A stretch of DNA of 54,952 nt from Fibrobacter sp. GTDB lineage: Bacteria > Fibrobacterota > Fibrobacteria > Fibrobacterales > Fibrobacteraceae. Under the pieces are notes generated by a model. That model saw nothing but the letters and a program-made list of their open reading frames with translations, was not told the DNA's origin and ran no database searches. The translations under genes were made by a program, and so were the position numbers. Positions within the stretch are counted from its first letter, which is position 1; every line of letters begins with the position of its first letter. Shown piece by piece: positions 1 through 44,064 of the stretch. The DNA lies in the NCBI GenBank assembly GCA_024399065.1, contig JAKSIB010000024.1, positions 1-54,952 of the forward strand. The letters run 5' to 3'.

Positions 1-57
1 AAGTTCCTGGGTGGGTTCAAAGAGCATGCCCTTATTCGGGAGAGCTACCTTAATCAT
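1..57 (-). CDS. hisG: ATP phosphoribosyltransferase HisG, N-terminal fragment
   Basis: Only the first 19 codons are in the window; the gene runs off the left edge. The peptide MIKVALPNKGMLFEPTQEL matches the start of HisG, which condenses ATP with PRPP in the first step of histidine synthesis; the early Leu-Pro-Asn-Lys-Gly stretch is typical. Its ATG overlaps the TGA of hisE as ATGA, so the two are probably translationally coupled. The function of the upstream gene, the second step-pair of the same pathway, supports the call. Whether it is the short (HisZ-dependent) or long form cannot be seen. Confidence 0.8.
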   Translation of the reverse strand, partial: MIKVALPNKGMLFEPTQEL

Positions 58-314
58 AGTTTAGCGTACACTTCTTCGAGGGTGAGACCTTTTTCTGCCA
101 TCATGCAGGCAACATAGTAGAGCACCTGGGACAGTTCCAGAGCCTGGTCGTCGCGAGTTTCGTAACGAGCGGCCATCCAGCTTTCGCCGGCTTCTTCAAC
201 CAGCTTCTTGCCGATGCCGTGTGCACCCTTCTTGAAAAGTTCAGTGGTGCTCTTGCCTTCGGGCATGGTTCTCTTGCGTTCGCAAACCAGCGCGTAGATT
301 TCTTCAAATGTCAT
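54..314 (-). CDS. hisE: Phosphoribosyl-ATP pyrophosphatase HisE
   Basis: An 86-residue protein, the usual size for stand-alone HisE, which hydrolyses phosphoribosyl-ATP to phosphoribosyl-AMP in histidine synthesis. The MazG-like all-alpha signature is visible: a Lys-Lys-Leu-Val-Glu-Glu-Ala-Gly-Glu stretch near residues 36-44, with acidic metal-binding residues, and a later Asp/Glu-rich helix (ETRDDQALELSQVLYY). The start is preceded by GAGG at a spacing of about six bases. It overlaps hisG by four bases, so the pair is an operon in the order hisE-hisG. It is not fused to HisI here. Confidence 0.88.
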   Translation of the reverse strand: MTFEEIYALVCERKRTMPEGKSTTELFKKGAHGIGKKLVEEAGESWMAARYETRDDQALELSQVLYYVACMMAEKGLTLEEVYAKL

Positions 315-386
315 AATTGACCTCGTTTAGATTTTTATACGAGGTACAAGATAGAAAAATGGTGGCGACGGCAATGTGGCCCTGCT

Positions 387-7107: not shown

Positions 7108-9231
7108 TTATAGCTCTATACCTGTTTCGCGCTCGGTGACAGTACAGCAGGCAGCCTTGAAAGTCTCGGGAGAGGCTATGATTGTTACCGATTCCTTTGC
7201 ACGGGTGACTCCGGTATAAAGGATTTGATTGGTGAGCAAGGGGTGACCCTTTTGCTTGGGCAAAAACATGGTCACGTGCTTATACTCGGAACCCTGGGAC
7301 TTGTGAATGGTAATGGCAAAGGCGCTTTCGATGGCGTCCTCCGGTAAAACAGCCAGAGGATAGAACACATAGTTGTCTCGGACAATATTGCTGTCTTGTG
7401 GGGGAGCCTTTTTTAGCATCAAGTAGGGAGTGTGTTCGTCGAAGACCACAATGCCTGTGTCGCCGTTGTACAGCTTGTACATTTCCTGATTTTGGGTAAT
7501 AATCAGGAACTGACCCGGGAAATAACCGGAATCTTGAATTGCTTGGGTGGTGAGTGTCCCTGCAGATTGAGAATCATTTTCTTGGTGGGATTTTTTCCAA
7601 AGGCTGTGGAGTTTACTGCATGCCTTCTTGTTCAGGTTTTCTACACCACGGGCGCCTCGGCGTTCCGCAGAAAGCATTCTCTGGGTAAGACTCAACTCCC
7701 AAAGCTCATCGCGAATTTCCGTTTCACCCGTTGTTACATTGGGGTGTATTTTTTCAGCCAGTTCGGACAGCCTTTTAAAATTCTGAACCCAATCGTTGAC
7801 GATTTTTTCCACACGCTTTTCTTCAAGTTTCTTTGGAGTCTTGATTTCGCTTTCCGGTTCCAGTCGGTAATACGATACGAGATCCTTTGTTTTTACGTTG
7901 GATGTCGATGCGTATGACATGGTGTCGCCTTCGGTGCTGAGGGACGGGTGCAACAGAAAGTTGTGTGGCCTGAACTTGAGCTCGTCTTTCGTTTCTGCTA
8001 CAGTCTTGATTTCGTGAGCTAGGCGTCCGATGAGGGAATCGTCTGTAAAGCGGTTGGAAATTTCCAACTTTACGGTAAAATTGCGGGTACTGTTTTTTGC
8101 CTTGAGAATTTCTCCAAGGACTGCGCCGGAATCTACGGACGGCAATTGGTACGGATCACCCAGAATGAAAATACGGGCGCCTTCGGGAATTGCCTGCAGA
8201 AGGGCTGCAAACATTTCGATGTCGATCATGCTGGCTTCATCAATAACAAAGATGGAGTTTTTGGAGAATTGTTCATCTTTATTATAATGGAAGTCTCCTT
8301 TTTCTCGGGAGAATTTCAGTAGGCGATGAATGGTGCTGCTTTCAAGGTCTTTCAATTTTTTGAAAATGCGTGCGCCGCTTTCACTTTCCTTGAAGGAATC
8401 TTCAATGGCTGAAAGTCCATCGGAAAGACTTTCTCGCATGCGGTCTGCGGCCTTGCCGCTGGGAGCCGCCAAGTAAATTGTCCAGTCCAGCATTTCGCTG
8501 TTAGATTGCAGCAGCTTCCAAAGGATGTACAGCACAACGGTGGTTTTGCCAGTGCCTGGTCCACCTGTAATAATCAAGTTTTCTGTAAGGCCGCGAAGGA
8601 TGGCGGTTGCTTGCTGGTTGTTGATTAGGAATGGTTTTCCCTTAATAGGCTTGCGAATTTTGGAAATTTCTTGGATGCATTCCTGAATGGATTCGTCGCT
8701 GGGGGTGGATCCATTTTTGAACAGCTGGGCTGCCGCCTTTTCGATGTAGCATTTTGCATTGAAATGCTTGGCGAAATACAGGTAGGAAATTTCTCCTGTA
8801 GTAATGATGAACGGCTTGGAATATTCATCAGTATCCAAGGGCTCATTGCAGGATCGGTTTTCCGTAATTTCAGGAAAGTCCATGTTCAGAAGTTGCGTGG
8901 CGCCTGCTGTAACGATGTTTCCGAAATCTTCTGCTTTCGGAAAATCAGATTCGCTGACTTCTGTTTCTGACGTACTGATGTTCAGCTGGACAAGACCTTG
9001 CCATTTTCGGATCCACATCTCATTAAACAGATTTTCATCAAGAGGCAGACGTGTGTTGCCATCTCCGAGCAGAGAAAAACACAGCGCCAGAAATTTCTGG
9101 GTCGGCAAATCCATATCTGGCTGAATTTCAAACAATAAGTTTAGCAGGTGCTTGTCAATGGAGTTGATACCACGCAGGTCTTTCAATGCGTCGTAGAATT
9201 CGTTGAAGTTTTCGCTTTCGATAAAGTTCAT
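7108..9231 (-). CDS. recD: Exodeoxyribonuclease V alpha subunit RecD
   Basis: A 707-residue superfamily 1B helicase, the 5'-3' motor of RecBCD. Seen: Walker A ITGGPGTGKTTV near residue 222, Walker B FVIDEASMID, a GDPYQLPSVDSG motif III, and C-terminal AITIHKSQGSEY motif V/VI region. It is somewhat longer than E. coli RecD (608). ATG 9231 is preceded by a GGAGA box. It is last in the recC-recB-recD order, eleven bases after recB, so the whole enzyme for double-strand-break repair and degradation of linear DNA is encoded in one operon. Confidence 0.93.
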   Translation of the reverse strand: MNFIESENFNEFYDALKDLRGINSIDKHLLNLLFEIQPDMDLPTQKFLALCFSLLGDGNTRLPLDENLFNEMWIRKWQGLVQLNISTSETEVSESDFPKAEDFGNIVTAGATQLLNMDFPEITENRSCNEPLDTDEYSKPFIITTGEISYLYFAKHFNAKCYIEKAAAQLFKNGSTPSDESIQECIQEISKIRKPIKGKPFLINNQQATAILRGLTENLIITGGPGTGKTTVVLYILWKLLQSNSEMLDWTIYLAAPSGKAADRMRESLSDGLSAIEDSFKESESGARIFKKLKDLESSTIHRLLKFSREKGDFHYNKDEQFSKNSIFVIDEASMIDIEMFAALLQAIPEGARIFILGDPYQLPSVDSGAVLGEILKAKNSTRNFTVKLEISNRFTDDSLIGRLAHEIKTVAETKDELKFRPHNFLLHPSLSTEGDTMSYASTSNVKTKDLVSYYRLEPESEIKTPKKLEEKRVEKIVNDWVQNFKRLSELAEKIHPNVTTGETEIRDELWELSLTQRMLSAERRGARGVENLNKKACSKLHSLWKKSHQENDSQSAGTLTTQAIQDSGYFPGQFLIITQNQEMYKLYNGDTGIVVFDEHTPYLMLKKAPPQDSNIVRDNYVFYPLAVLPEDAIESAFAITIHKSQGSEYKHVTMFLPKQKGHPLLTNQILYTGVTRAKESVTIIASPETFKAACCTVTERETGIEL

Positions 9232-9242
9232 CGTATAGTCTC

Positions 9243-12200
9243 CTACTTGCTCATCAGCTTCTTGATTTCGCCGTAGGCGTTTTTAAGATCGTCGTAGCTA
9301 TTCCAGGTCTGGGCGTAGATGCCTCTGCCGCTACCGCCTAAGGTTCCGCGTACAAAGGCGTAATAGATGCCGCCGAAATGCTTTTGGAAGATTTCTTCTT
9401 CTGTCAGATTTTCCTGGGAGCCTTCGCCATAGAACTGCTTTAGCCATTGAATCAGGCAGTAGCTGTAAAGAACTCGCTGGATGGAATAATCGGCGTCCAC
9501 ACGTTCCTTTAATGCTGCAGGCGTGTAGCGGTTTTCCTCAAGTACGTCAGACTTCCAGTCCAAAATGCTGTAGCGCTTGTTGCCTTCTGCATCTTCACGT
9601 ACGAACATCAAGTCAATGAAACCCTTGCAGAACTTGTGAAGATTTGCCGTAGGTTCATTGGTACCGTTGGATGCATCGCCACTTTGGATTTCGTTTGCAT
9701 TCAAGTTGAACTGCATTTCTGCCTTGTGATCTGTCAGAGGAATTTCCGTGAGGGAGAAGGTGGCGCCTGTGGCTGCGTTTCCTTCAATGACGGGAAGTTT
9801 TGCGTTCAGCGTATTCCAAACGTAGCTGATGGCAATTTCAGTCCACGCATCCTTATGATTCCAGATGGGGAGGGATTCGTTCTTGAATTCTTCCTCAATG
9901 ATGTTCTGACTCTTGGCGTCGTTTAGGGCACTTTCCAGAGTGGGCAAGGACTGCCCAATTTCGAAGAACCTTGCACGTTCAAAGACGTGATGGATGGCGT
10001 TACCCAGCTTGCTTCCGCGGGGGAACTTCTTTACGTTTTCTTCATAATGGCTCTGGTAATCTTGATTATCCTCGTAGGGCATGGAACAGTCCACGGCGTT
10101 TACGTCAATGCTCTTGATGGAAACTTTGTTCCTGCTTACGATTTCTGCATTGTCGTCGCGGTCATCGCCGTTCTGGTCCAGCGGTGAATCGTCTTCGTTA
10201 CTGATGCCGTTGTCAGCCTTTCCCGAAAGAGAGGAATAGGAATACTGCATAATGCAGGCATGAGGAACTTGCTTTTGCAGAGATTCCATGGCAATCTTCT
10301 GTTCCTGAATTTTGATTTCTACATCTTGGATGGATTCTTGCTGGTTGTCATTTTCACTAAGAGGCAACAAGATGTTATTCTTGACCTGTTCCTTCTTTTC
10401 GCTGATACTCCATGCACTATCTGTTTCCAGAACGGTGAAGCATGGATAGCTCAGATTGTGACCGCCTTCATTGTCAACAATTTCGGCATTGTCGTAAAAC
10501 TCATTGTGGGAATCGTACAGGAACTTGAATTCCTCCTTGACTCCAGTGACAACGCCAGTCTTTTTGTCCTTCTTTGTCCAGTTTTCATAACGGGGCAAAA
10601 TCAAGATAGAAGAAGCGCGGGTAAAGTCAACGTAGAAAAGGCGCTTCCATTCTTCAAGTTCTTCTGCCTTGCGGGCATTTTTTGCATTTGGACCAAGACC
10701 CAGATGAATTCCATCATCGCCATGATATAGGAAAGGACCCTTGGAGGAGTTGTTGATGCCCTTGAATCCGGCTACGGAAATGACCACTGGGAATTCCAGA
10801 CCCTTGGAGGCATGAATGGTCATAATTTGCACGGCGTCATAATCGGTACCTTTTTCCACCAGGCTTCCATCTTCATCGTCGGCGTCTTCACGGAATGCAG
10901 CAAGACCGTCAAGATGACGAACCAAATCTTCCAGAGAACAGTTGTGGCTATAAAGGAACTCAATAGCATAGTTTCCAATTTGACGCAACTTTGCAAGATT
11001 TTGCAGCTTGGAAATGTCCATAAGGCGCTGCTCAATTTGCGTGTCGCTGTAGATGCGTTCCAGCATTTCCGCGTAGCGGTGCTTAAGGGCCAAATCTCGC
11101 CATGCATTTAGGAGCTTGCGTTCGTGATTATTGGGATCGTCAAAGGTCTTGCTATCCACATAATGGAGCTCGTCCATGCTGTGGTCTTCAGAAGAATCTG
11201 CATCATTTTTCGTGAAAACGGTTTTGAAGAAATCCGTAATCAGAACTTCGCTTAAAAGCCTACGGTTCCATGCGGAAAAATCCGGTGCGTTGAGGGCGCG
11301 GAACAATGCAATCCATTCGGCGCATTCGCGACTATTGAAAAGGTTGCTGTCCTTGTAACGGCTGAAAGGTACACCGGCGTATCGAAGAGAATCTTCAATC
11401 TCTTCCATTTCGCTACGGGTACGTGCTAGAACAGCGAAGTCCTTGAAGGAAACATCACGATATTTGCGGCAATTCTTTTTGTCAAATACTTGCAGGCGAG
11501 TTTTGCCGTTTTCAAAGGAACACCAGTCTACAATTTTTGAAACGACGGTCCGGGCGAATTCCAGGCTGGAAATTTCATTTTTGCTCAACCAAATGGGGGC
11601 AATTTCCTTTCCGTTTACAGTTGGTGGAACTTTTTGCTGGCTTTGATTTGCAGGAGAACCCGAAGGCGTAAAGTCAACGAGCTTCTCTACTCCTTCTGCA
11701 GGGGTAAAGAAGGATCCTTTGAACAGTTCGTTACAACCTTCAATGATGCCTGTGGTAGAACGGAAGTTGTTGTTTAGGGATGTTCCGGACTTGATTTCCT
11801 GAACGGCAGCTTTATAGACGTTGACATCTGCGCCCTGGAAACTGTAGATGGACTGCTTAGGGTCGCCAACGACAAAGATCGAATGATCGGGAACGTTCAA
11901 AAATACCGTACGGAAAATATCCCATTGCAGTTTGTTGGTGTCCTGGAATTCGTCAATGATGGCGTAATTAAACTGCTGACGAAGTTTGTCCTTAAGGTTG
12001 TTGCTTTCGGTAATTGCCTTGTGGACAGAAAGAATCATGTCGTTAAAGGATTGACGCTTGTCATCCTTCTTTTGCTTCTGCCAATGGTCAAAAAGGATGG
12101 GGATTTGCTTGCAAAGGAAATCTTCGTAACGTGCGAAACTAAGAATGTCGTCTACGTTGCCTAAGAAGTCCTTGATATCCTTCAGAACATTAAAGTGGCT

Positions 12201-38871: not shown

Positions 38872-38903
38872 AAAAAGTCCCCCGATTTCTCGGAGGACTT
38901 TTT
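38872..38903 (-). terminator. Terminator after the B12 operon
   Basis: AAAAAGTCC and AGGACTTTTT flank an inner CCG/CGG stem. It is placed 30 bases after the stop of the minus-strand propeller lipoprotein and ends in a T run in that direction. Confidence 0.85.
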
Positions 38904-38935: not shown

Positions 38936-40441
38936 TTAATCTTCGGCGGTGGCGTCAACTTTAACGGCGCAGAATTCCTTGGTGTTGATCAACTTTTCAG
39001 TGGAGAGAGTGGAGGTGTTGATCAATTCCAGGATGGGGGAGCCGTAGTAGGCGACCCATGCGGTGGTGGCGCTGGCGGCAACCATGTCGTAGGGGTTCTT
39101 GCCGATAGCAATGGACTGCTGGACTTCGCCGGAGGTTGTGTTGACCTTGGAGATGGATGCGGCGTCGCCGCGGGACATGACGTACAGTTCGCCGTTGACT
39201 ACAGCCAGCTTGGAATCCTGATCGAATTCAAGGCCCTTGTCTTCCAAATCAGCGTAGTTGAGGTAAAGCGCTCCATTGGTGTAGTCAGAAACGAATACGT
39301 AGGGAATACCCTTGATGACCTTGATGCTATAAGGCTGACGAGTTTCGTATTCGTCCTCTTCTTCATCAGGATTGGAAAGTGCGGTGAGGCTTGTCCCGTC
39401 GTAGATATAGGTTCTGATGGCCATGAAGTTCATTCCGTCGCGGTCACCGATGTAGAGAAGTCCGTTTTCTTCATCTAATTCCAGGGAACCGGAAGCATCG
39501 GAAATACCGCTAATCTTTGTTACGGAACCTGTGGAAAGATTGATTTCTGAAACACCGACGCTACCATATCCGTAGTAGACGGATACGAAACCCTTGTTGT
39601 TTTTCTTGTCTACAACGAAGTCGGTTAAACCGCCGCCCAGCTTGGAACCTGCGATGAATAGGCTGGATTTCTTATTCTTCAAATCAACCTTTTCGATGCC
39701 GCGAGTGTTGTCTGCGGGCAAGTTCCAATATGCGTCGTATTCGCCTGCGGTTGCAACGTAAACGTTACCACCAGCGACCTTTACGGCGGAGGGATTTTTG
39801 GTGGCCAACTGGATGGTGTCCAAAAGATCGCCTGTAGCTACGTTGTACAAGGCCAGCAAACCGTTGTGATGGAATTCGGTATTGTAGCCGACAGTTGTGG
39901 AGCGCTGGAAAATAGCGAACAAAGTGTCGCCGGAAACTTCCAGGTCGGCCAGGTTTGGGGTAGTGCTTTCGTATTCAACAGGCTTTGCGGGTTCTTCGCT
40001 GGAGCTGCTTTCTACCGGCTCTTCGGAACTGGAAGAGTCAACGATTTCTTCGGAAGAGCTGGAAGAATCAATAGCTTCTTCAGAAGAACTGGAGGAATCT
40101 GCAGTTTCTTCTGCACTGGAGGAAGATTCGTCCTTGCTATCAGAAGATTTGTCGTCCTTTGCTTCGGAGGAACTGGATTTGTCATCATCCTTATCTTCCT
40201 TTGCGCTGCTGGAAGATTTGTCCTTGTCTTCCTTTACACTGGAAGAGGACTTGTTGTCTTTCTTGCTGCTGGAGGATGATTTGACGCTGGAAGAGCTTTC
40301 GTCTTCATCGTCGAGGCAGTCTTCGGTATCATCGCAGGTGACTTCCGGGCCTACGCCGTTCTTTTTATCGTCGCCACCGCAAGCGCTCATGAACAAGGCG
40401 AAACTTGCGACGGTAAGGAGTGATAGGATTTTGCGATTCAT
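38936..40441 (-). CDS. Beta-propeller surface lipoprotein, candidate BtuG-like B12-binding partner
   Basis: A 501-residue lipoprotein (Met-Ser-Ala-Cys lipobox, Cys21) with a Ser/Asp/Glu/Lys-rich linker (about residues 30-155) and then a YncE/SMP-30-like beta-propeller (about 160-500) with repeats such as LFAIFQRST, VYVATAGEYD, LLYIGDRDG, PYVFVSDYTNG and LYVMSRGD. It lies 57 bases downstream of a BtuB-like receptor gene under a cobalamin riboswitch. In Bacteroides, BtuG is a propeller lipoprotein that captures B12 for BtuB; the same context suggests an analogous role here, as inference. ATG 40441 has GGAAAC upstream and gives the signal peptide; an ORF extension overlapping btuB is rejected. 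Confidence 0.75.
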   Translation of the reverse strand: MNRKILSLLTVASFALFMSACGGDDKKNGVGPEVTCDDTEDCLDDEDESSSSVKSSSSSKKDNKSSSSVKEDKDKSSSSAKEDKDDDKSSSSEAKDDKSSDSKDESSSSAEETADSSSSSEEAIDSSSSSEEIVDSSSSEEPVESSSSEEPAKPVEYESTTPNLADLEVSGDTLFAIFQRSTTVGYNTEFHHNGLLALYNVATGDLLDTIQLATKNPSAVKVAGGNVYVATAGEYDAYWNLPADNTRGIEKVDLKNKKSSLFIAGSKLGGGLTDFVVDKKNNKGFVSVYYGYGSVGVSEINLSTGSVTKISGISDASGSLELDEENGLLYIGDRDGMNFMAIRTYIYDGTSLTALSNPDEEEDEYETRQPYSIKVIKGIPYVFVSDYTNGALYLNYADLEDKGLEFDQDSKLAVVNGELYVMSRGDAASISKVNTTSGEVQQSIAIGKNPYDMVAASATTAWVAYYGSPILELINTSTLSTEKLINTKEFCAVKVDATAED

Positions 40442-40497
40442 GTCGTTTCCTTTTTTTTGGTTTGACATTCCCGGTTTGAACGGGAAATGTGTTGTGG

Positions 40498-42546
40498 TTA
40501 GAAGTTTTGTAAAATCGTGAAGTGCCATTCCCTGCCCGGTGTGGGGTTGGGAGAGTAAATGTTCGTGTAGGTTTCGTCTGAAATGTTCGTGAGGCTAAAA
40601 ATCAAACGGGTGGATTCCCAGGGGTTGTATCCGAGAGCGGCTTTGTATCTTGCCACGTCGGGCTGGCGAATCTTGTTTCCGCGATCCGTGTAAATATGGG
40701 TGCGGTAATTAACGTCAAAAGACAAATCAAAATGGAGGGGGAGGTAGAACTTTCCTTCTACGTAATAGCTGTGAACCGGCTCGCCCGGCAATCGCTTACC
40801 TGTGTATAAACGAATCTTGCTTTCGTCACGGGGATCCTGGATGGTGCCGCGCATTGTAGTTTCAAAGAAGTCGGCAGGTTTGCTGTTTAATTCCAGCTCG
40901 ACACCCTGAATGTTTGCTGCGTCCACGTTGAAAGCCTTCATGGCGTTTGTGCTGACAATCCAATAAATTCCATTTTCCAAACGAGTGTCAAAGTAGGTGG
41001 CCCGCAAGGTGCTTTTTTTGGAAGGGCTTTGCACAAATCCGCCAACTTCAAAACGAACGGCGGTTTCGTCTTTCAACTTGGGGTTGGAAAGAACGCCTTG
41101 GTAGACTCCGTAAAGTTCCATGAGCTGAGGCTGTCTGTAGAAACGGCCAATACTGATGTTGCCACCGAACCAACTGTCTTTCTTGCCTAGCTTTGCCTGG
41201 ACCATTCCGGCGTAACTCAAGTCGCGGGTTTCGGCGTCGCTGATGATTGCTGTGCCTGTGGGCATTAAGAATTTTCCACCGTCAATTTCATCGTTAGTCT
41301 TAAGGATATTTCCTTCTGCAAAGAGGCTTAGCCATTTCGTAAAGGCGAACTCGCCGTTGGCAGCAATAGATGCTGTGTATCGAGAAACGCCAAAGTCGCG
41401 AATGGTGCCGCGGGCGCCCCAGGTTTCGGCGCTAGCCGCTGCACGGATTGTTGCTTCAAGGCGGTCTAGAATCAAGGTTCCGATAAGCTCGGGCACCAAA
41501 CGGTATCCGGCAAGACCGTAATGAATAAAGTCGGGGTAGCTATAGCCGATGTAATCCAGCGGATAGTAGGATCCAGAAACATTCTTCTCGAATTTGCCTG
41601 CCACGCCTGCTTCTAGCAACAGGCATTGCAAAAGCACCGGGGTTTCCAAATGGTATGAAACTTGGGCGTTGTCACCCACGAATTCCGCTACCTTGGTCTG
41701 AGAACTTTCATGGCCTGGGTTGCCTGCTTCCGTGTGAGTGATGCTTGCGGAAACGGTGGAAAAATAACCGCCCTTATGAAGAACGCGGTACTGCAGATTT
41801 CCAGAGTATTCTGTGAACTCAGCATTTTCTCGCTTGTCCATAAAGTCGTCGTCTTTGTTATAGGCGGTTCCGTTGCGATTTAAAAATTCGTAGTCGTTGT
41901 CGCTATGGCGGGCAGAAATTGTTGCAGAGAATTGTACGCTGTCCTTAGGACTTGCAGAAATCTGGGCGGAACCTTCGAAGGAATTGTGGGAACCGATGGT
42001 TGCCAGAATGCGCCCGCCCTTGTTCAAGGAATTCTTTGTGATGAAGTTGATGGCTCCGCCAAGACCTGCGCCTCCGAACTTGGCGGGTACGCGATCCTTG
42101 TAGACTTCAATGCGTTCTATGTTATTTAAGTCAATGGCGCCCAGGTCGGCTGCTCCACCACCTGCGTCGTTTACGGGAACTCCGTCAATGCAAATCAAAA
42201 TGTTGCGGGCGGCCACGCCGCGAATGCTTACGGTCTGGAAACTGCCCATGCCGCCTTGCTTGTAGCTTTGAATGCCCGGCAATGCGGAAAGAACTTCTGC
42301 TGCGGAAAGACCGCGGCCTTCCCAGGCTTCGGGCTTGATTTCTTCGTAACTGGGAGCTACGTCGGCAGGGGAGGGAGGAGGCTCTACGATTTCGGAGGAA
42401 CCTAAATCTTGAACGAATTCTTGTGAGGAAACAACGATGCCTTCGTTAGCATCATTTGCGTGGGCTGCGGTTGCCGGGGCAACTCCGAAAGTTGCCATAC
42501 CCAAAAACACCGCCAGGGCGGTTATGGACCTAGATGTCTCTCGCAT
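40498..42546 (-). CDS. btuB: TonB-dependent outer-membrane receptor, BtuB-like
   Basis: A 682-residue outer-membrane receptor: signal peptide (about 1-28), an N-terminal segment with IVVSS that may serve as TonB box, a plug domain (about 75-195) with GLSAAEVLSALPGI, VSIRGVAARN, IDGVPVND and IERIEVYKDRVPAKFGG, then a 22-strand-type barrel ending in Phe. Control by a cobalamin riboswitch directly upstream identifies the likely ligand as vitamin B12 or another corrinoid. GAGG precedes ATG 42546. The propeller lipoprotein follows in the same transcript. Confidence 0.88.
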   Translation of the reverse strand: MRETSRSITALAVFLGMATFGVAPATAAHANDANEGIVVSSQEFVQDLGSSEIVEPPPSPADVAPSYEEIKPEAWEGRGLSAAEVLSALPGIQSYKQGGMGSFQTVSIRGVAARNILICIDGVPVNDAGGGAADLGAIDLNNIERIEVYKDRVPAKFGGAGLGGAINFITKNSLNKGGRILATIGSHNSFEGSAQISASPKDSVQFSATISARHSDNDYEFLNRNGTAYNKDDDFMDKRENAEFTEYSGNLQYRVLHKGGYFSTVSASITHTEAGNPGHESSQTKVAEFVGDNAQVSYHLETPVLLQCLLLEAGVAGKFEKNVSGSYYPLDYIGYSYPDFIHYGLAGYRLVPELIGTLILDRLEATIRAAASAETWGARGTIRDFGVSRYTASIAANGEFAFTKWLSLFAEGNILKTNDEIDGGKFLMPTGTAIISDAETRDLSYAGMVQAKLGKKDSWFGGNISIGRFYRQPQLMELYGVYQGVLSNPKLKDETAVRFEVGGFVQSPSKKSTLRATYFDTRLENGIYWIVSTNAMKAFNVDAANIQGVELELNSKPADFFETTMRGTIQDPRDESKIRLYTGKRLPGEPVHSYYVEGKFYLPLHFDLSFDVNYRTHIYTDRGNKIRQPDVARYKAALGYNPWESTRLIFSLTNISDETYTNIYSPNPTPGREWHFTILQNF

Positions 42547-42610
42547 CGTTCCTCAACTTTTGCGCAATTCGCGGTGTATCGGAAAGCGGGTGGACCGTGA
42601 TTCGCGCGAC

Positions 42611-42824
42611 CTGTGTTTTTGCAGTTCTTCTGGCTTGGGGATCATCCTACTTCCGGCTCCTTCGCATGAGGGTTGGCTACCTCACACTGGTTTTGAATTT
42701 TACCGGTTTCGTACTCCCATACAGCGGCGGGACCGTCCCGGATTCACACCGGGTTCTCTCCTTTATTTTCTTGCAGGGTACCTGCGACGAAAACAAAGAG
42801 CTTTTCAGGGCACAAAAACTTTTG
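42611..42824 (-). ncRNA. Cobalamin (AdoCbl) riboswitch
   Basis: On the minus strand, 42750-42721 reads GGTGTGAATCCGGGACGGTC and then CCGCCGCTGT, the hallmark core of cobalamin riboswitches. Downstream, 42636-42621 reads AAGCCAGAAGAACTGC, the B12 box with minor changes. The spacing and the long leader (about 280 bases to the btuB ATG) fit the class. Boundaries are approximate. After the B12 box, sequence up to the GAGG at the btuB start could form the switching stem that hides the ribosome-binding site; no terminator with a T run was seen, so control of translation is more likely. Confidence 0.92.
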
Positions 42825-42830
42825 CGTCCA

Positions 42831-42859
42831 AATTTAGATAAATGATAAAAGGGTGTAAA
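42831..42859 (-). promoter_or_regulatory. Promoter of the B12 operon
   Basis: On the minus strand, TTTACA (42859-42854) and TAAATT (42836-42831) are 17 bases apart, a good sigma-70-type spacing. Transcription would start near 42824, just before the riboswitch aptamer. Confidence 0.6.
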
Positions 42860-42897
42860 GTTATATAAAACTTCTATTACGAGTGTGAGCGGCTGTT

Positions 42898-44064
42898 TTA
42901 GCTCTTATTCACTTCGATTCCTAAGCGATTGACCTTGTAGTGCATTACTCTGGGGCTTAAATCAAGATCGCGACCGGCGGCGCTCATATTGCCTTTGTGA
43001 CGGCGCAGTGCTTCACTGATAATTTCTCGTTCGTAACTGTCGATAAGGGTGGACAGGGGGGAGGTTCCTTCGGGGAGAAGGGCTGTTCCGGAGGTGACAT
43101 CTGTTTGCAATGTTGGCGGCAAATCGTAGGCGTTGATGGCAACGTCTGTGGTCACGAGGCAGGCGTGCTCAATACAGTTTTCCAATTCACGGACGTTGCC
43201 TGGCCAGTGGTAGCTCAGAAGCATGTCGATGGCGGGGGAACTGAGGCGCAAGATTTTCTTGCCGTACTTCAGGTTCATCTTGGCGATGAAATAGTCGGCG
43301 AGTAACAAGATATCGGTCTTTCGCTGGGACAAGTCTGTCAGATGGATTTGAAATATGTTTAGACGGTAGTAAAGGTCTTCGCGGAAAAGACCCTGCTGCA
43401 TCATTTGTTCTAGGTTTCGGGCAGAACTTGCGATGAGGCGGACGTCTGCATTTTGCACGATGTTACTGCCTTGACGGCTGAATTTTCCGTCTTGGATAAA
43501 TTGCAGGAGCTTGAATTGTGCCGAGGGCGAAAGGTTTGCCACTTCGTCAAGGAACAAAGTTCCTCCGGCGGCTTGTTCTGCTTTGCCGAGGCGTCGGCTG
43601 GTGGCGCCTGTGAAGGCTCCGCGTTCGTATCCGAACAATTCACTTTCGAAAGTGTTGGCGCTGTTGATTACTGCACTGCCATTGCTGTCGCTTAAGGTGC
43701 TGCAGTTTAGCATCACGAAGGGCTTTTCCTTGCGGTCGGAAAGCTGATGGATGCTTCGGGCCACGTACTCCTTGCCAGTGCCTGCGTTGCCTCGTACAAG
43801 AACCAAGGCGATGGATGTGGCGATGTGTCGCACCTGGTCGCGAACCGCTCGCATTTCGCTGGTGTTGCCGATGAGTTCGCCGGGCTTGCCTTTCACCAGG
43901 TCGCGAATTTTGTCGCATTCCTCTTGGTGTGCGGAGCTTGCTTCTTGAAATTTTTCTGAAAGAATGGAATGGATTTTGTCTAGTTGGTGCTCACGCTTGC
44001 GTACCGAGCGCAATGTCTCGGCAATTTGTGCAAACGTGGAGCTTTCTAGTACGTCAAAATCCAT
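42898..44064 (-). CDS. Sigma-54 enhancer-binding protein with Fis-type HTH
   Basis: A 388-residue activator. Residues 1-65 form a short, probably coiled-coil N-terminus without receiver or GAF domain. The AAA+ domain has Walker A RGNAGTGKE near 91-99, ESELFGYERGAFTGA with the sigma-54 contact loop at 149-154, Walker B GGTLFLDE near 168, and WPGNVRELENCIEHA. An insert of about 11 residues (SDSNGSAVINSANTF) precedes ESELFGY. The C-terminus has a Fis-like helix-turn-helix (NMSAAGRDLDLSPRVMHYKV). AAGGA precedes the ATG. It is divergent from glnN, which hints at nitrogen control, but no sigma-54 promoter was found there. Confidence 0.87.
   Translation of the reverse strand: MDFDVLESSTFAQIAETLRSVRKREHQLDKIHSILSEKFQEASSAHQEECDKIRDLVKGKPGELIGNTSEMRAVRDQVRHIATSIALVLVRGNAGTGKEYVARSIHQLSDRKEKPFVMLNCSTLSDSNGSAVINSANTFESELFGYERGAFTGATSRRLGKAEQAAGGTLFLDEVANLSPSAQFKLLQFIQDGKFSRQGSNIVQNADVRLIASSARNLEQMMQQGLFREDLYYRLNIFQIHLTDLSQRKTDILLLADYFIAKMNLKYGKKILRLSSPAIDMLLSYHWPGNVRELENCIEHACLVTTDVAINAYDLPPTLQTDVTSGTALLPEGTSPLSTLIDSYEREIISEALRRHKGNMSAAGRDLDLSPRVMHYKVNRLGIEVNKS

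Follow-up and report, generated by a model that had tools for sequence, protein, structure and literature searches.

The minus strand of a Fibrobacter sp. contig (JAKSIB010000024.1 of GenBank assembly GCA_024399065.1; the 54,952 nucleotides analysed here are termed the window) carries a compact operon, in which a cobalamin riboswitch precedes genes for a BtuB-like TonB-dependent receptor and a β-propeller lipoprotein. We consider it likely that this unit is a corrinoid-regulated uptake system of the BtuB-BtuG type, and that one clade of such systems bears a circularly permuted lid. An analogue of BtuG paired with BtuB outside Bacteroidota had been proposed for these genes from the sequence alone (hereafter, the original prediction); that proposal is supported both by the linkage of the genes and by the BtuG-like character of the unpermuted relatives of the lipoprotein. 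It had, however, overlooked that the propeller of the window is a natural circular permutant. The features of the operon are:

42603..42807, minus strand: cobalamin riboswitch aptamer (RF00174, 82.1 bits, E 9.4e-19).
40498..42546, minus strand: gene for the BtuB-like TonB-dependent receptor, 682 amino acids (open reading frame, Plug domain, TIGR01779 and PDB match).
38936..40441, minus strand: gene for the BtuG-like propeller lipoprotein, 501 amino acids (open reading frame and AlphaFold2 model).
40379..40441, minus strand: signal peptide and lipobox, MNRKILSLLTVASFALFMSA-C21 (sequence).
39986..40378, minus strand: flexible Ser/acidic linker of 131 residues (sequence).
39308..39985, minus strand: propeller part 1, equivalent to blades 4-7 plus the closing strand, which form the C-terminal two thirds of the unpermuted relatives.
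38939..39307, minus strand: propeller part 2, corresponding to the N-terminus of the unpermuted relatives (the rest of blade 1, and blades 2-3).
38872..38903, minus strand: intrinsic terminator with a 14-bp stem and a T-run (free energy -22 kcal/mol, z -6).

Read along the minus strand, the riboswitch is followed by the receptor gene (with a ribosome-binding site, GAGG, at 42554-42551), a spacer of 56 bases, the lipoprotein gene and finally the strong terminator. The match to RF00174 covers the full length of the model (1-189) and lies far above its gathering score (82.1 versus 31.5 bits), bearing out the riboswitch noticed earlier; this element, at 42807-42603, is the single cobalamin riboswitch found in the genome, which is 99% complete. 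A promoter had also been claimed just upstream, but hexamers like those at 42869-42842 and 42859-42831 are as frequent in shuffled sequence, and we have dropped this claim. In the receptor a Plug domain was detected with an E-value of 5.7e-19, and its best curated family is TIGR01779 (TonB-B12; E 1.3e-29).

The lipoprotein opens with a lipobox, FMSA-C21, the Cys of which is also found in its relatives, and continues into a linker of Ser, Asp, Glu and Lys with 46 Ser residues and a net charge of about -26. AlphaFold2, run with 16 sequences, models the ensuing domain with a predicted local distance difference test score (pLDDT) of 87.9, a predicted template modelling score of 0.88 and 28 main strands; with the blade count read from the strand list, the modelled domain is comprised of seven blades of four strands each. 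Lipobox, 131-residue linker and seven-bladed model agree with the earlier description of a lipoprotein with a long Ser/acidic linker and a propeller. The propeller domain itself has no match in Pfam or NCBIfam, the latter recognizing only the linker, and a single-sequence search of PDB with it returned nothing useful.

To characterize the permutation, we compared 16 permuted proteins, namely that of the window and 15 fetched relatives from altogether three genera, with 26 unpermuted relatives. The window protein aligns end to end with its permuted close clade, but in a swapped order with the unpermuted relatives: its C-terminal third aligns with their N-terminus, and the rest with their C-terminus. 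Both pieces were found swapped in 22 of the 26; in the other four, either only one piece matched or the second one was blade-shifted. Rotation of the window domain at residue 226 improved the alignment score against every one of the 26 unpermuted relatives, and for the closest of them the best cut fell at or beside this same residue. When the profiles of the permuted and unpermuted sets were compared without rotation, the match (206 columns, E 1e-64) ended at the old C-terminus. The junction can be read directly in PYSIKVI-KG-IPYVFVSDY, where the old last strand (PPYSIA..) is joined to the old first one (.VYVFGSDY) by about 2 residues. In the strand lists of the models, the unpermuted ring is closed in blade 1 by three N-terminal strands and one C-terminal strand. 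The strand order of the permutant, on the other hand, places blade 1 in one continuous piece and the ends between blades 3 and 4, an arrangement that appears to have displaced the lipid tether by about 2.5 blades along the disc. The moved part (38939-39307) has also diverged more, with ~28-34% identity to the closest unpermuted relatives versus 45-50% for 39308-39985, and no longer has the LERxGADN motif that the unpermuted family carries.

The two sets were likewise compared with respect to their linkers, which span 74-159 residues in all 16 permuted proteins (median 120), and have a median of 16 residues in the unpermuted ones, six of the 26 having 67-184. Because the permutation arose only once, its association with long linkers is no more than suggestive. 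Two unpermuted lipoproteins (L064:4862-6493 and L068:7636-9264) have between anchor and propeller ~180 residues resembling immunoglobulin-type repeats, which look, from their sequence, like an alternative way to lengthen the tether.

Since the protein of the window is circularly permuted, its direct comparison with BtuG fails. The permuted family alone has no profile match to BtuG; when the permuted model is used in a sequential fold search, YncE leads, with WD40-type chains and no BtuG among the matches listed; and pairwise rotation scores against one BtuG sequence are too low to fix the register. The structure-based comparison with BtuG that had been envisaged for the window protein was therefore informative only by way of an unpermuted relative, which was modelled at a pLDDT of 96.5. 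With this model, Foldseek retrieved BtuG structures from PDB at ranks 1-10 (E to 1e-12, template modelling scores of 0.70-0.75), followed by XusB, and VIA-align gave Z-scores of 28-30 with the BtuGs over 295-297 residues. At the level of sequence, BtuGs again came first when the profile of the unpermuted family was searched against PDB (E 1e-6 to 1e-4), and hhalign matched this family to 20 Bacteroidota BtuGs with 97% probability over 208 columns and in the same blade register. Furthermore, the termini of the unpermuted relative and BtuG coincide in the structural alignment (1..331 against 48..366), and the same blade carries a GxY insertion in both families (TDGGYEGSPYG versus SQGDYNDAWG). 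As for the binding pocket, the four BtuG2 residues named in the main text of PMC10404256 were compared through sequence alignments read by hand, in which the position of Trp194 is aromatic in 25 of the 26 unpermuted relatives.

Several observations weigh against assigning the unit to the BtuB-BtuG type: 1) The identity of the unpermuted family to BtuG is only 12-15%. 2) An archaeal YVTN propeller, 1l0q, ties with BtuG on Z (29.1), and for this reason the modelled fold alone is not decisive. 3) The other three named pocket residues of BtuG2 are not identical in the Fibrobacter family. 4) A BtuG profile searched over the phylum matches the unpermuted-type family in distant lineages, and a different propeller in the genus. 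5) The same profile finds nothing in the genome of the window. 6) The receptor misses the BtuB equivalog cut-off of TIGR01779 (103 versus 599.7 bits), a score so far under the cut-off that we file it as BtuB-like and not as an equivalog. 7) Long linkers are not specific to permutation, being also present in six of the 26 unpermuted relatives.

The first three of these points, together with the ambiguous rotation scores against BtuG, would be in keeping with convergence, whereby a generic propeller lipoprotein of the YVTN/YncE type was independently recruited as a partner of BtuB and came to work like BtuG in spite of a separate ancestry. We regard such a history as rather unlikely, because BtuGs top both the structure and the profile searches, the hhalign match keeps the same blade register, the termini coincide and the GxY insertion lies in the same blade of both families. 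Shared ancestry and convergence had both been considered in the original prediction; with BtuG nearest in both kinds of search, the balance tilts to common descent, which is moderately supported for the unpermuted family and BtuG. A B12 lid of the BtuG type, encoded outside Bacteroidota, is the most likely identity of the window's propeller, which probably derives from a common ancestor with its Bacteroidota counterparts.

Throughout the phylum the unit has been conserved. Relatives of the propeller are present in 135 of 167 Fibrobacterota genomes, a receptor adjoins the propeller in 39 of the 40 loci that were inspected (one with a gap of ~1 kb), and a cobalamin-class riboswitch was found at 37 of these 40 (36 of RF00174 and one AdoCbl-II). 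The AdoCbl-II riboswitch (RF01689; L035:5683-5761) stands in the place of RF00174 in the btuB-propeller unit of genome G150. Among 122 listed propeller loci, 101 have a riboswitch on the same strand 2.4-3.4 kb upstream, a spacing equal to the length of a receptor gene; as there are only one to few riboswitches in each multi-megabase genome, the linkage of riboswitch and propeller is not due to chance. The original prediction would be undermined if the closest relatives of the propeller lay away from BtuB-type genes, but the receptor in 39 of 40 loci and the riboswitch at 101 of 122 speak against this. In most genomes of the genus, moreover, the riboswitch of the propeller unit is the only cobalamin riboswitch found.

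The linkage of the propeller with cobalamin riboswitches and a BtuB-like receptor throughout the phylum, and the fact that most genus genomes yielded no other cobalamin riboswitch, also bear on whether it binds corrinoids at all. It might instead be merely co-regulated with BtuB, and stabilise the receptor or bind some other ligand, which would agree with a pocket chemistry that is not identically conserved with BtuG and with the binding of siderophores by the related lid XusB (PMC13142918). Given the linkage, we consider a propeller of this kind improbable, and corrinoid binding by the lid the better expectation.

In a tree of the propellers computed after rotation, all permuted forms fall in one clade (support 100/100) nested inside the unpermuted ones, and the tree of the partner receptors recovers the same clade (100/99). 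Both trees place the permutation at one origin, common to propellers and partner receptors. We take the unpermuted form as ancestral because it is phylum-wide and has the termini of BtuG. Although blades are repeats from which shifted matches arise (as seen against BtuG), and many of the genomes are fragmented, we dismiss an artefact of assembly or of repeated-blade matching as wholly implausible, since specific matches account for both parts and meet at just one junction, 23 genomes from three genera carry the permuted form (several of them in long contigs), its sequences group in one supported clade, rotation raises the score against 26 of 26 unpermuted relatives, and the permuted sequence models as a complete seven-bladed ring.

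Within the permuted clade the genera are intermixed, which suggests either a joint movement of both genes or the sorting of old copies. Circular permutants usually arise by tandem duplication followed by fusion. At one locus (L071:3182-7950, in a genome with an estimated contamination of 8%) a receptor gene is followed by two tandem unpermuted propeller genes, of which the second has a Ser linker of 110 residues; this is the kind of duplication that could yield a permutant. In the propeller of another locus (L065:7679-8806, minus strand), but not in that of its sister L062, a blade-2 stretch (DAVLRSYGGYLYVLERRGADNILKLDP) comes ahead of a blade-1 stretch (LFVMQSDFQSGQVRS); this order reflects either a further rearrangement on a smaller scale or faulty assembly.

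Taken together, these features allow a mechanism to be proposed. When B12 is plentiful the riboswitch would turn both genes off, and when it is scarce the BtuB-like barrel and the lipid-anchored propeller would be made. The propeller would then capture corrinoids at the cell surface and pass them to the barrel, which would import them using TonB energy, and a BtuC-like permease with its ATPase would move them through the inner membrane, to reach MetH and other enzymes. The BtuG lids of Bacteroides are characterized by femtomolar corrinoid binding and a stable complex with BtuB. There, BtuG sits on BtuB as a cap, and the linker at its N-terminus, gripped by receptor loops, may serve as a hinge (PMC10404256). 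In the clade of the window, a single past event would have fused the old ends of the propeller and opened new ones between blades 3 and 4, and we infer that the linker of ~120 residues compensates for the moved tether by letting the re-cut lid settle onto the receptor in its former orientation. More tentatively, the linker might act as a leash, on which the lid swings free, fishes for corrinoids at a distance from the barrel and redocks; taken with the unpermuted family, this would make lidded B12 uptake an old trait of the Fibrobacterota-Chlorobiota-Bacteroidota (FCB) group and not an invention of Bacteroidota. On such a leash the permuted lid would have a long flexible tether in place of the held hinge of the Bacteroides lid, which resembles that of a pedal bin.

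The window's genome encodes a single BtuC-like permease and its ATPase, a B12-binding radical SAM protein, and a frame of 1209 residues that has the size of MetH and contains a B12-binding domain; CobS, which acts in a late step of cobalamin synthesis, had no match in this genome. The absence of a CobS match beside a B12-binding protein of 1209 residues suggests a B12 scavenger, and, judging from these sequences, the organism most likely scavenges corrinoids. The acidic residues that follow the lipid Cys (CGGDD, CGDD, CSDS) are reminiscent of the export signal of Bacteroidota. A role in the export of surface lipoproteins has been suggested, speculatively, for the β-barrel assembly machinery (BAM) complex of Bacteroidota. 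Six of the seven other FCB phyla share its conserved components BamG and BamH (PMC12611786), and surface display is thereby plausible in Fibrobacterota. The genome is also Fibrobacter-like by its 27 matches to Fsuc_second, which had none in 14 control genomes, and by its 78 matches to Fib_succ_major.

Directly upstream of the riboswitch lies a gene for a sigma-54 activator (42898-44064, minus strand) with AAA and Fis-type helix-turn-helix domains, in which Pfam recognizes neither a sensor nor a receiver domain. This regulator and the electron transfer flavoprotein genes downstream are outside the B12 unit.

A literature search, mostly outside subscription papers, found no description of BtuG-like lids in Fibrobacter or of a permuted lid. 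The lidded design of B12 uptake, which was thought exclusive to Bacteroidetes, is very probably present in a second phylum, where the same operon design is widespread and has in addition given rise to a rearranged form. The permutant constitutes a natural experiment on such lids: an essential N-terminal hinge should fail when it is moved, yet a whole clade retains the moved version. Pairs of permuted and unpermuted close relatives make the question of the hinge directly testable. The case also illustrates how a permuted propeller can escape sequence libraries.

Comparison with known systems brings out the following relationships: 1) E. coli BtuB is the nearest PDB sequence to the Fibrobacter receptor, by a match in the plug and N-terminal region, but the latter falls well under the equivalog cut-off; we know of no lipoprotein lid in E. 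coli. 2) The YncE/YVTN propellers (3vgz, 1l0q) have the superfamily fold in common with the Fibrobacterota proteins, but are without a link to B12 uptake and, when the unpermuted family is the query, rank below BtuG by both fold and profile. 3) XusB, the second-best structural family, is likewise a propeller lipoprotein that partners a TonB-dependent receptor, but it is a siderophore-binding DUF4374 protein without a cobalamin riboswitch (PMC13142918); Pfam gave no DUF4374 match in the window protein or the 26 relatives. A second receptor-propeller pair of other Fibrobacter-type genomes, with a siderophore-type TonB receptor and a Ser-linked propeller-like lipoprotein (L169:4914-8659 in G063; L168, ~8192-11781, in G105), lies near a FeoB-like gene and ABC exporters and is reminiscent of XusAB. 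This FeoB-linked propeller was ruled out as a source of confusion, as it has no match in the genome of the window. 4) The BtuB-BtuG systems of Bacteroides likewise have a cobalamin riboswitch operon with a BtuB-type receptor beside a seven-bladed propeller lipoprotein (PMC6143338, PMC10404256), and BtuG1/2/3 have their termini, blade order and best structural match in common with the unpermuted Fibrobacterota relatives. They differ in belonging to another phylum, in their 12-15% identity and in partly changed pocket residues, and the form in the window departs further from them in being permuted and in bearing a long Ser/acidic linker.

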